From positions 9,342,501 to 9,406,500 of the forward strand of contig NZ_CP095376.1 of assembly GCF_023008405.1 (NCBI RefSeq): a DNA stretch of 64,000 bases. The letters run 5' to 3'. Below, piece after piece: positions 38,416 to 43,385 of the stretch. The notes under the pieces are model-generated. The model was not told the DNA's origin, ran no database searches, and was given only the letters and a program-made list of their open reading frames with translations. Source of the stretch: Amycolatopsis sp. FBCC-B4732 (GTDB lineage: Bacteria; Actinomycetota; Actinomycetes; Mycobacteriales; Pseudonocardiaceae). The position numbers were made by a program, and so were the translations under genes. The stretch's first letter is position 1. Each line of letters starts with the position of its first letter.

Positions 38416-38438
38416 GGGGGGCTTGCCGCAAGACCCCC
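38416..38438. promoter_or_regulatory. Rifamycin-associated element (RAE)-like inverted repeat
   Basis: GGGGGGCTTGC, one central C, GCAAGACCCCC: 11-base arms with a single mismatch. The core GGGGCTTGCCGCAAGACCCC (38418-38437) closely matches the RAE as I recall it from work on actinomycete rifamycin-inactivation genes. It lies 69 bases before the glycosyltransferase start, just behind an AT-rich stretch (TTAAACGTATATC) that may hold the -10 box. It precedes three genes whose families are all linked to rifamycin resistance. Confidence 0.8.
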
Positions 38439-38458
38439 GTCGTGCCGCAAAATCGTCG

Positions 38459-38486
38459 CCCTGAGCCGGAAAATCCCGGCTCAGGG
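38459..38486 (+). other. Leader hairpin between RAE and glycosyltransferase
   Basis: CCCTGAGCCGG (38459-38469) pairs perfectly with CCGGCTCAGGG (38476-38486) around the loop AAAATC. It ends 20 bases before the GTG start, close to the ribosome site. No U-run follows, so not a classic terminator; it could modulate elongation or translation. Confidence 0.55.
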
Positions 38487-38506
38487 ATCCAACGGGGGTT
38501 TTGCGA

Positions 38507-39730: not shown

Positions 39731-39759
39731 ACCAGCATCGAACGAACAAGGGGAGATTC

Positions 39760-41193
39760 ATGATCGACGTGATCGTGGCCGGTGGCGGCCCGACGGGGAC
39801 GATGCTGGCCGCCGAACTGCGGCTGCACGGCGTGCGGGTGCTCGTGCTGGAGCGGGAAGCCGAGCCGGTCAAGGAGGTCCGGTCGCTCGGCCTGCACGTG
39901 CGCAGCATCGAGGTGATGGCCCAGCGCGGCCTGCTGGACCGCTTCCTCGAAGAGGGCAAGCAGTTCAAGATGGCCGGGTACTTCGCCGGCATCGACAAGC
40001 CGTGGCCGGAACGGCTGGACAGCGCGCACGCCTACGTCCTCGGTATCCCGCAGCCGGTCACCCAGCGGCTGCTGACCGAACACGCCGTCAAGGCGGGCGT
40101 CGAGATCCGGCCCGGCGCCGAGGTGACCGGGCTGAGCCAGGACGACGAGGGCGTCACCGTCGAGCTGGCCGGCGGTGAGCGGCTGCGGGCGCGCTACCTC
40201 GTCGGCTGCGACGGCGGGCGCAGCACGGTCCGGAAGCTGCTCGGGATCGGCTTCCCCGGGGAGCCGGCCCGGCACGAGACGCTGCTCGGCGAGATGGAGG
40301 TGACCGCGCCGGCCGAAGAGGTGGCCGCCATCGTGACCGAGATCCGCAAGACGGAGAAGTTCTTCGGGCTCGGGCCGCTCGGGAAAACCGGGCGGTACCG
40401 GGTGCTCGTGCCCGCCGAGCAGGTGCGCGAAGACCGGTCGGTCCCGCCGACGCTGGAGGAGTTCAAGGAGCGGCTGCGCGTGTACGCGGGCACCGACTTC
40501 GGCGTGCACTCGCCGCTGTGGCTGTCCCGCTTCGGCGACGCGACGAGGCTCGCCGAGCGCTACCGGGACGGCCGGGTCTTCCTCGCGGGCGACGCGGCGC
40601 ACATCCACCCGCCGCTGGGCGGGCAGGGCCTCAACCTCGGCCTCCAGGACGCGGTGAACCTCGGCTGGAAACTGGCCGCCGAACTCGGCGGGTGGGCGCC
40701 GGCGGGCCTGCTGGACACCTACCAGGCCGAACGGCACCCGGTGGCCGCCGACGTGCTGGACAACACCCGGGCCCAGGGCGAGCTGATGCGCCCCGACGCC
40801 GGACCGCAGGCCCTGCGCCGGCTGCTGGCGAAGCTGATGGACTTCGAAGAGGTGAACCGGTACCTGATCGGGCGCATCGTCGGCATCGAGATCCGCTACG
40901 ACTTCGGCGACGACCACGACCTCGTCGGACGGCGGCTGCGGGACGTCGAGCTGAAGGGCGGCCGGCTGTACGACCTGATGCACGGCGGCCGCGGGGTGCT
41001 GCTCGACCAGACCGGGCGCCTCTCGGTGGCCGGCTGGGCGGACCGGGTCGACCACGTCGTGGACGTCAGCGAAGAGCTGGACGTGCCCGCCGTGCTGGTG
41101 CGGCCGGACGGCCACGTGGCCTGGGCCGGCGAAGACCAGGGACAACTGCAGGACCGGCTGGCGCGGTGGTTCGGCGCGCCGGCCGAGGCGTGA
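39760..41193 (+). CDS. rox: FAD-dependent monooxygenase, rifampicin monooxygenase (Rox)-like
   Basis: 477 residues; GGGGAG six bases before the ATG. Class A flavoprotein hydroxylase: dinucleotide motif [20 protein letters not shown] (1-20), DG motif [20 protein letters not shown] (~148-167), GD motif [18 protein letters not shown] (~276-293). The stretches [19 protein letters not shown] and [20 protein letters not shown], and a thioredoxin-like tail ([16 protein letters not shown]), match my memory of Nocardia/Streptomyces Rox. Rox hydroxylates the rifamycin naphthyl ring, linearising the ansa chain. NADPH-dependent, cytosolic. Only 8 bases separate it from helR. Confidence 0.82.
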
Positions 41194-41201
41194 GGGGACG
41201 C

Positions 41202-43385
41202 ATGACGGAACACGAAACAGAACTGAAGGCCGAACGCGCCCACGTCGCCGGGCTCTACGACCGGCTCGACGCCGAACGCGAGCGCGTGCGCGACGCCTAC
41301 CGGGCGGCGCTCGGCGGCAACGACCTCGGCGCCATGGAACGGGACGTCCGGGTGCGGGCGCTCGGCCGGGAGGTGCGGCGGCTGGACGTCGTCGACAACG
41401 GGCTGTGCTTCGGGCGGCTCGACGCCGTTTCGGGGGAGCGCTCCTACATCGGCCGGATCGGGCTCTTCGACGAGGAAAACGACCACGAACCGGTGCTGCT
41501 CGACTGGCGGGCGCCGGCCGCGCGGCCGTTCTACACCGCCACCGGCGCGCACCCGGAGGACATGCGCCGCCGCCGTCAGTTCCACACCCATCGGCGGGAC
41601 GTGGTCGACTTCACCGACGAGGACCTCGGCCGCCCGGGCGGGGACGCGTCGGGGGACGCGGCGCTGCTCGCCGCCGTCAACGCCCCACGCGGCGAGGGCA
41701 TGCGGGACATCGTCGCGACGATCCAGGCCGAGCAGGACGAGATCATCCGGCTCGACCACCCGGGCGTGCTGGTGATCGAAGGCGGGCCGGGCACCGGGAA
41801 GACGGTGGTGGCGCTGCACCGCGTCGCCTACCTGCTCTACACCCAGCGGGAACGGATGGAACGCCACGGCGCGCTCGTGGTCGGGCCCAACCCGGCGTTC
41901 CTGAACCACATCGGGCGCGTGCTGCCGTCGCTCGGGGAAACCGACGTCGTCTTCACGACCACCGGCGACCTCGTGCCCGGCCTGCACGTCACGGCCGAGG
42001 ACGCGCCGGAAGCCGCGCGGGTCAAGGGTTCCCGGAAGATCCTGGACGTGCTCGCGGCCGCCATCGCCGACCGGCAGCGGCTTCCCGCGGAGCCGGTGGA
42101 GATCCAGCTGCGGGACGCGACCGTGCGGATCGACGCCGCGACCGCGGAGTGGGCCCGGCAGGAGGCGCGCGACAGCGGGCAGCCGCACAACGAAGCCCGC
42201 GCGGTGTTCGCCGACATCGTCACCTACGTGCTCACCGAACGGGCGATGAAGCGGATCGGCCAGGGCTGGCTGAGCCGCGACGACCGCGAGGACTGGGAAC
42301 GGTTCCGGGCCGAACTGGTCAAGGATCTCAACGCCGACGAGGTGTTCACCCGCACGCTCGACGAGCTGTGGCCGATCCTGACCCCGGAAACCCTGCTGGC
42401 GCAGCTGTATTCGTCGCCGGAACGGCTGCGCGCGGCGGGCGGTGACCCCGTGCTGGCGCGGGCCGAGGGCGACGCCTGGACGGTGTCGGACGTGCCGCTG
42501 CTCGACGAGCTCGTCGACCTGCTGGGCCGGGACCTCGCGGCCGAGAAGGCGGTGGAGCGGGCAGCCGAGCGGGAGCGGAAGGCGAAGGCCGCCTACGCCG
42601 CCGACGTCCTGGACAACCTCATCGAGCGCGAGGACGTCGACGAGGACGTCGGCCTGGTCGCCAAGGACCTGCTCTACGGTGAGGACCTGGCGGACCGGTT
42701 CGTCGAAACCGACACGCGGACGCTCGTCGAGCGCGCCTCGGCGGACCGGGATTGGACCTACCGGCACGTCGTGGTCGACGAGGCCCAGGAACTGTCCGAA
42801 ATGGACTGGCGGGTGCTGATGCGGCGGTGTCCCGGGCGGTCGTTCACGGTGGTGGGCGACCTCGCCCAGCGCCGGTCGGCGGCCGGGGCGCGGTCGTGGG
42901 GCGCGATGCTCGACCCGTACGTGCCCGGCCGCTGGGTCTACCGCTCGCTGACGGTGAACTACCGCACGCCGGCGGAGATCATGAGCGTTGCCGCCGCCGT
43001 GCTGGCCGGGTTCGCGCCCGACGTGCGGCCGCCGGAGTCGGTGCGCGCGTGCGGGGTCGCGCCGTGGGCGCGGCGGGTCGGCGACGGCGAACTCGCCGCG
43101 GCCGTCGAGGAGTTCACCGGCGCGGAAGCCGGGCGCGAAGGCACCAGCGTCGTGATCGGGCCGCCCGGGGTGCCGGGCGCGGTACCTCCGTCCGAGACGA
43201 AGGGCCTGGAGTTCGACGCCGTGCTGGTCGTGGACCCGGACCGGATCCTCGACGGCGGGCCCCGCGGCGCGGCCGAGCTCTACGTGGCGCTCACCCGCGC
43301 CACGCAGCGCCTCGGCGTCCTGCACCGGGGTCCGCTGCCGCGGGAGCTGGCCGGGCTCGCCGAGGCCCCGGTGCCGGTGCCGTGA
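41202..43385 (+). CDS. helR: HelD-family RNA-polymerase-associated helicase-like ATPase (HelR-like)
   Basis: 727 residues; GAGGGGACGC precedes the ATG. An N-terminal charged helical arm (ELKAERAHVAGLYDRLDAER) fits the HelD coiled coil that enters the RNA polymerase secondary channel. SF1 (UvrD-like) motifs follow: Walker A GGPGTGKTVVALHRVAYLLY (~191-210), Walker B HVVVDEAQELSEMDW, GDLAQ, LTVNYRTPAEIM, SETKGLEFDAVLV and YVALTRATQRL. HelR-class proteins displace rifamycins from RNA polymerase and rescue it; HelD proteins more generally recycle polymerase. The operon context favours the resistance class. Its stop lies 3 bases from a convergent gene. Confidence 0.82.
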   Translation: MTEHETELKAERAHVAGLYDRLDAERERVRDAYRAALGGNDLGAMERDVRVRALGREVRRLDVVDNGLCFGRLDAVSGERSYIGRIGLFDEENDHEPVLLDWRAPAARPFYTATGAHPEDMRRRRQFHTHRRDVVDFTDEDLGRPGGDASGDAALLAAVNAPRGEGMRDIVATIQAEQDEIIRLDHPGVLVIEGGPGTGKTVVALHRVAYLLYTQRERMERHGALVVGPNPAFLNHIGRVLPSLGETDVVFTTTGDLVPGLHVTAEDAPEAARVKGSRKILDVLAAAIADRQRLPAEPVEIQLRDATVRIDAATAEWARQEARDSGQPHNEARAVFADIVTYVLTERAMKRIGQGWLSRDDREDWERFRAELVKDLNADEVFTRTLDELWPILTPETLLAQLYSSPERLRAAGGDPVLARAEGDAWTVSDVPLLDELVDLLGRDLAAEKAVERAAERERKAKAAYAADVLDNLIEREDVDEDVGLVAKDLLYGEDLADRFVETDTRTLVERASADRDWTYRHVVVDEAQELSEMDWRVLMRRCPGRSFTVVGDLAQRRSAAGARSWGAMLDPYVPGRWVYRSLTVNYRTPAEIMSVAAAVLAGFAPDVRPPESVRACGVAPWARRVGDGELAAAVEEFTGAEAGREGTSVVIGPPGVPGAVPPSETKGLEFDAVLVVDPDRILDGGPRGAAELYVALTRATQRLGVLHRGPLPRELAGLAEAPVPVP

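Follow-up and report, generated by a model that had tools for sequence, protein, structure and literature searches.

The 64,000-nucleotide stretch of Amycolatopsis sp. FBCC-B4732 analyzed here (NZ_CP095376.1, positions 9,342,501 to 9,406,500; hereafter the window) contains three + strand genes lying 3′ of a single 19-bp palindrome, GGGGCTTGCCGCAAGACCC. The palindrome, which a preliminary description of the locus had as an inverted repeat nearly equal to a known element, is an exact match to the pattern GGGNCTTGCNGCAAGNCCC, which we take to be the rifamycin-associated element (RAE). The genes encode a glycosyltransferase (GT), a Rox-type monooxygenase, and a HelR-type RNA polymerase ATPase; the intergenic gaps of 29 and 8 bases given earlier are confirmed by the coordinates. 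The RAE heads the operon and does not directly precede helR. We read the locus as a rifamycin-inducible resistance operon in a bacterium that shows no hallmark of a producer, switched by a conserved RAE-centered module, and we give this reading a probability of roughly 0.8. The features are as follows.

38374..38393, - strand: inverted repeat GAGGGA/TCCCTC at the start of a proposed reverse transcript; the hairpin is conserved in relatives
38401..38406, - strand: mirror -10-like box TACGTT; shifted one base upstream, it can be read on the + strand as well; TANNNT in 131 of 135 sites
38418..38436, no strand: RAE palindrome, the only copy in the window
38423..38428, + strand: proposed sense -35, TTGCCG, inside the RAE, by analogy with mycobacterial helD promoter 2 as given in PMC10719064
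38448..38453, + strand: proposed sense -10, CAAAAT, 19 bases behind the -35 (window letters; 134 of 135 RAE sites have NANNNT here)
38459..38486, + strand: stem-loop with a perfect 11-bp stem where the operon mRNA is proposed to start (window letters; relatives' leaders)
38507..39730, + strand: Rgt-like glycosyltransferase, listed from TTG 38501, with GTG 38507 the more likely start (NF000354, GtfB 1iir, tree)
39760..41193, + strand: Rox rifampin monooxygenase (NF033145, 874 bits; 5vqb, 755 bits)
41202..43385, + strand: HelR, class II HelD-type RNA polymerase ATPase (NF041258; NF041465; M. smegmatis HelD)

The palindrome and the three gene products

A scan allowing up to three mismatches found the RAE once in the window, which counts as two matches because both strands are read, whereas shuffled windows gave a mean of 0.21 RAE-like matches per shuffle and reached two matches in 1 of 100 shuffles. 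In the whole genome of 10.19 Mb the exact pattern has two occurrences, this one and one at C1:1512960, and its reversed control has no exact match. On the scan, the shuffles, the genome count, and the control, we rejected a chance palindrome. The pattern also agrees with the 19-bp palindrome given in PMC10719064.

Rox and HelR both score above the curated cut-offs of their families, in line with what the preliminary description had assigned them to. Rox reaches 874.1 on NF033145 (cut-off 800) and aligns end to end with the solved rifampin monooxygenase 5vqb (755 bits, residues 1-474) and over its whole length with the Nocardia farcinica enzyme 5kow (698 bits). HelR reaches 1337.8 on NF041258 (cut-off 1100) and matches M. 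smegmatis HelD (6yxu) over residues 3-723 with 1131 bits. The acidic tip of its loop, DED, lies at residues 480-482; compared with the commonest form among 81 aligned sequences, the loop lacks one residue.

The first gene fits its earlier label, GtfB/Rgt-type, only in part. Its match to the curated Rgt model NF000354 runs end to end, yet falls below the cut-off. That model gave 451 bits for vancomycin GtfB, 398 for GtfD, and 480 to 539 for six relatives; with GtfB at 451 and the window GT at 473, it cannot tell Rgt from GtfB, and we dropped it as proof of Rgt. The cut-off of 800 was reached in none of 396 genomes of a phylum sample in which at most four candidates were scored per genome. The nearest solved enzymes are the vancomycin-type GtfA, GtfB, and GtfD (359 to 419 bits, with GtfB 1iir at 419). 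In a midpoint-rooted tree of 64 rows, with the reference Rgt protein not among them, the window GT groups with those of L005 and L214 (92 percent identity), and the wider grouping holds helR-adjacent GTs of other genera and several of the best NF000354 matches. GtfA, GtfB, and GtfD fall into a clade of their own (100/99), set apart by weak forks (83/55 and 82/53). By its place in the tree, the window GT would belong with the RAE- and helR-linked GTs, and we call it Rgt-like, unproven; clade and RAE linkage would support the earlier label where the model score does not.

Upstream of the RAE, a + strand frame that looks membrane-protein-like by eye ends at 38353, 64 bases away; 3′ of HelR, the next long frame among those tested is on the minus strand. 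Further along, minus-strand iron transporter genes at 45575-48818 encode an EfeB-type peroxidase (TIGR01412, 502 vs 428) and an EfeU permease (NF041756, 351 vs 255).

A conserved module around the RAE

The 135 distinct RAE sites that we aligned, with the RAE at positions 0 to 18, come from the window, from 73 of the 76 retrieved loci L163-L238, and from helR loci with about 20 different genus labels. A sense box NANNNT, mostly CAGAAT or CACAAT (CANAAT), is found at +30 to +35 in 134 sites and a reverse-strand TANNNT at -17 to -12 in 131; the means over the other offsets are 0.03 for NANNNT and 0.001 for TANNNT. The offset of the reverse box is the mirror image of that of the sense box about the palindrome, and on either strand 19 bases separate the -10-like box from a TTGC-type -35 within the RAE. 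Invariance inside the RAE was not used as evidence because it follows from how the sites were chosen. The sites of genomes G042-G079 were retrieved only after the boxes had been defined. Of these 65 sites, 64 could be oriented, and these same-genus relatives, which are not independent lineages, show the sense box in 64/64 and the reverse box in 61/64. In four genomes that lack an exact RAE, a composite pattern defined without the reverse box picked up 10 degenerate sites, every one of which carries that box; G051 yields an eleventh match, which has neither the arms nor the reverse box. Two Rgt-model loci of other families carry both boxes as well. For mycobacteria, PMC10719064 reports that helD in M. 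smegmatis has two sense promoters, of which promoter 2 has its -35 on the RAE, and that deletion of half of the RAE led to loss of helD induction in M. abscessus. The alignment suggests a larger promoter module of rigid layout with the RAE at its center: a putative sense promoter would take its -35 from the RAE and follow it, at a fixed distance, with a weak CANAAT -10, and a second -10-like box sits at the mirror position.

A reverse-strand stem of 9 bp was scored in 137 sites, namely the 135 above and the two Rgt-model loci. When it begins at index 42, the predicted start of a reverse transcript, at least eight of the nine pairs form in 65 sites, and when it begins at 40 or 41, in 68, so the position is good to within two bases. 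Ten shuffles yielded 2 to 10 sites at start 42 and at most 13 at any start, and the sense strand gave at most 10. The pairs vary on both sides, as at pair 3, which is A-U in 37 and C-G in 31 of the 109 sites with at least seven pairs. Folding energies, computed with site L232 in the wrong orientation, point the same way: mean z is -1.33 at the reverse hairpin, -0.43 in the leader on the sense side, and 0.09 and 0.28 at greater distance. We considered a terminator behind the reverse hairpin and rejected it: the T content of the next 10 bases is 0.30, against 0.31 on the other strand and 0.18 further away, and since this is not strand-specific we claim a hairpin, not a terminator. The window's own reverse stem, GAGGGA/TCCCTC, is short. 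On the sense side, a long stem similar to that at 38459-38486 is present in seven of nine RAE-GT-Rox-HelR leaders and is shorter in L275 and L282.

The RAE regulon, RpoB genotype, and the meaning of the operon

Among the best 80 of the 542 helR loci found, 64 have an RAE (up to three mismatches) within 3.5 kb upstream of helR. The order RAE-GT-HelR occurs in seven, labeled Longimycelium, Solihabitans, Actinokineospora, Kutzneria, Streptoalloteichus, Rhodococcus, and Umezawaea; in Solihabitans, Rox follows HelR, giving a second order of the same three genes (GT-HelR-Rox). RAE-Rox-HelR is found in L009 and L011, Rox-HelR with no RAE at up to three mismatches within 3.5 kb in L056, and GT-Rox-HelR behind an RAE with one mismatch in A. 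eburnea. Short frames with a GT-like beginning lie between RAE and helR in two Saccharothrix loci (L013:5390-5647 and L025:5432-5818) and are perhaps decayed copies of the first gene. Mycobacterium simulans L052, in which a Rox-like match of 36 percent and a GT-like match of 30 percent lie near helR, was not counted as an operon.

Of 80 Amycolatopsis genomes, 62 have an exact RAE and two the reversed control pattern, once on each strand; eight, the host and seven others, have RAE-GT-Rox-HelR at an exact RAE. When the window site is excluded, 141 sites (140 fetched plus the second site of the host genome) describe the regulon, and 136 of them head a GT, Rox-type, RPH, or HelR gene. Sorted by what follows the RAE, they are Rox (34), a second GT group, GT2 (32), a Rox-type group, Rox39 (22), GT (15), HelR (12), and RPH (12), with GT-Rox-HelR at 7 sites, Rox-HelR at 1, and three Rox-type matches in a row at 1, L264 in G055; the other five sites are unassigned, helR being further away in two and three being at or near contig ends. 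The one RPH scanned exceeds the rifamycin phosphotransferase cut-off (1547 vs 999). The second RAE of the host heads a GT2 gene (G000:C1:1511715-1512908; L238, L001:244-1464) about 50 percent identical to the window GT, with 378 bits on NF000354, and GT2 is placed further out in the GT tree. Rox39 (L212:3956-5443) is an FAD monooxygenase about 39 percent identical to Rox, and the one member scanned fails the Rox model (356, cut-off 800). GT2 and Rox39 are likely candidate groups of rifamycin-modifying enzymes. Because two-gene and reordered versions exist in other genera, RAE-GT-Rox-HelR is one arrangement of a modular regulon. The earlier proposal of three defense layers under one switch thus gains comparative support, with the full order found repeatedly within the genus and simpler versions in other genera. 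Our literature search found no description of the order RAE-GT-Rox-HelR or of the mirror boxes, which does not prove their absence from print.

The host RpoB is wild type in the rifampicin region, so resistance genes would be of use. Substitution S531N, in what we take to be E. coli numbering, is present in 14 of the 79 Amycolatopsis genomes with an RpoB match (39 read by sequence, 33 identical to the host by search, and 7 inferred from identity and score). Twelve of the 14 share the haplotype D516Q, N518T, L521I, S522D, S531N; G028 has H526Q and S531N, and G072 has S531N. Neither an exact RAE nor an RAE-like composite match was found in 13 of the 14, the remaining one, G072, having one exact RAE. 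The module is absent from only 1 of 65 S531 genomes, G005, which has the other four haplotype changes; G063 has the same four changes, without S531N, and keeps the module. The link between S531N and module absence has a Fisher p of 7e-13, or 0.004 with the 12-genome haplotype counted once, both taken without a species tree. The 12 shared-haplotype genomes still hold Rox-like genes (772 to 817 bits). Either loss of need or loss of a polymerase-based sensor would explain the link.

Three observations weigh against a three-gene rifamycin defense. The GT has 473.4 bits on NF000354, below the cut-off of 800. HelR also passes NF041465, HelD_MYCSM (1329.1, cut-off 1051), so that the models do not separate a resistance HelR from a general HelD. 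Rox- and helR-type genes also occur singly behind their own RAE, and the union in an operon may therefore give little extra. Alternatively, the GT may act on another molecule, of glycopeptide type or other, and be in the operon by coincidence only: its nearest solved relatives are vancomycin-type, several relatives are annotated by their sources as vancomycin aglycone glucosyltransferase, and the NF000354 scores do not set Rgt-like enzymes apart from glycopeptide ones. We consider this unlikely because the gene is headed by an RAE, related GTs lie between RAE and helR in seven other loci and, at another 15 sites that lack Rox-HelR, follow an exact RAE, and the three glycopeptide enzymes keep to their own clade, albeit across weak forks. 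That HelR serves chiefly in general recycling rather than in drug protection, as its passing of the HelD_MYCSM model might imply, seems more improbable still given the RAE control, the two rifamycin enzymes alongside, and the DED tip, which is kept even though the loop is shorter. We place least weight on self-resistance of a rifamycin or other ansamycin producer. The genus includes rifamycin producers, and PMC7283461 describes degradation of rifamycin SV by producers' Rox, but the host RpoB region is wild type and AHBA synthase is the best match for none of the seven full-length DegT-family proteins found in the host. Two of these have PseC and RfbH as best models, and five are, by PDB matches, sugar or perosamine aminotransferases or a 4-dehydrase entry; two of the five match AHBA synthase 1b9h at 144 bits, compared with 278 and 295. 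A rifamycin producer is therefore not supported, and self-resistance is very improbable.

Models of the switch and comparison with known systems

In the resistance operon as we read it, the RAE-centered promoter would be low until rifamycin is present and would then drive one mRNA for the three genes. The GT would cap the drug with a sugar, Rox would hydroxylate and linearize it, and HelR would push the remaining drug off RNA polymerase. The operon reading draws here on the protein families (for the GT, only as far as the Rgt-like clade), the gene order, the single RAE at the head, and the recurrence. Rifamycin induction and the activities of Rox and HelR would carry over from published work on other RAE genes, and we infer co-transcription, the substrate of the GT, and a joint benefit.

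How the RAE senses rifamycin is, according to PMC12802891 (2026), still to be elucidated. The likeliest single answer, to which we give about even odds, is that the RAE is the operator of a rifamycin-responsive transcription factor yet to be named and that the boxes beside it form an ordinary promoter or additional binding sites. A palindrome with GGG/CCC arms resembles a dimer site, and a -35 needs no arms; such a factor is considered in PMC12802891 and PMC10719064, which name none in the parts available, and fixed boxes at mirror distance on both sides exceed what an operator needs. We speculate, as a tentative second choice, that the RAE is the shared -35 of mirror-image promoters, a weak sense CANAAT promoter and a reverse TANNTT promoter with a hairpin-first transcript, whose competition would make RNA polymerase its own rifamycin sensor; the module would then be useless where RpoB no longer binds the drug. 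Against such divergent promoters, a polymerase stalled by drug on one should block the other, and in B. subtilis moving two promoters closer abolished induction (PMC12802891). The reverse box also need not be purely reverse, for a + strand NANNNT lies one base upstream of it, at -18, in 132 of 135 sites. This would suit two tandem sense promoters, in which a transcript from the upstream one crosses the RAE and interferes with the downstream one until rifamycin relieves the interference. A conserved A at -5, near the predicted upstream start, fits this scheme, and PMC10719064 reports the two sense promoters of M. smegmatis helD and describes interference for rpoBC. However, T comes first at -18 in only 19/135 sites, as opposed to reverse TANNNT in 131/135, and the start published there lies some 20 bases upstream of the RAE and does not fit the box, so that we regard tandem promoters as somewhat less probable than divergent ones.

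Drug modification, drug destruction, and target protection appear to be shuffled as cassettes behind one switch, and the conserved module provides an explicit architecture, open to testing, for a switch that PMC12802891 describes as still awaiting a mechanism. The genus regulon also brings up two enzyme groups, GT2 and Rox39, that are not known to have been characterized and probably modify rifamycins.

The window Rox is similar over its whole length to Rox of S. venezuelae (5vqb, 755 bits) and N. farcinica (5kow, 698 bits), from which it differs in sitting between GT and HelR without an RAE of its own. HelR resembles HelR of M. abscessus and HelD of M. smegmatis in RAE control and full-length similarity (1131 bits to 6yxu); unlike these, it is the third gene of an operon, and its loop has one residue fewer than is most common. 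The GT shares with Rgt (NF000354) an end-to-end match of 473 bits and RAE linkage but stays below the curated cut-off of 800, and shares with GtfA, GtfB, and GtfD a fold family (359 to 419 bits) but not their clade (100/99). At the level of regulation, PMC10719064 describes RAEs at the head of rgt, rox, and helR genes, as here, and an S. venezuelae RAE regulon of rox and helR as two separate genes, whereas in the window operon three families share one RAE. The rifampicin alarm of B. subtilis helD and pps, according to PMC12802891, consists of two convergent promoters 39 bp apart whose overlap abolishes induction. There as at the present locus, helD-type and rifampicin-modifying genes lie behind a sense promoter and, possibly in our case, a second one of opposite orientation. 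A convergent pair about 39 bp apart was not found here, as the boxes flank the RAE at mirror distance; if they are promoters, they would be divergent or tandem and overlapping.

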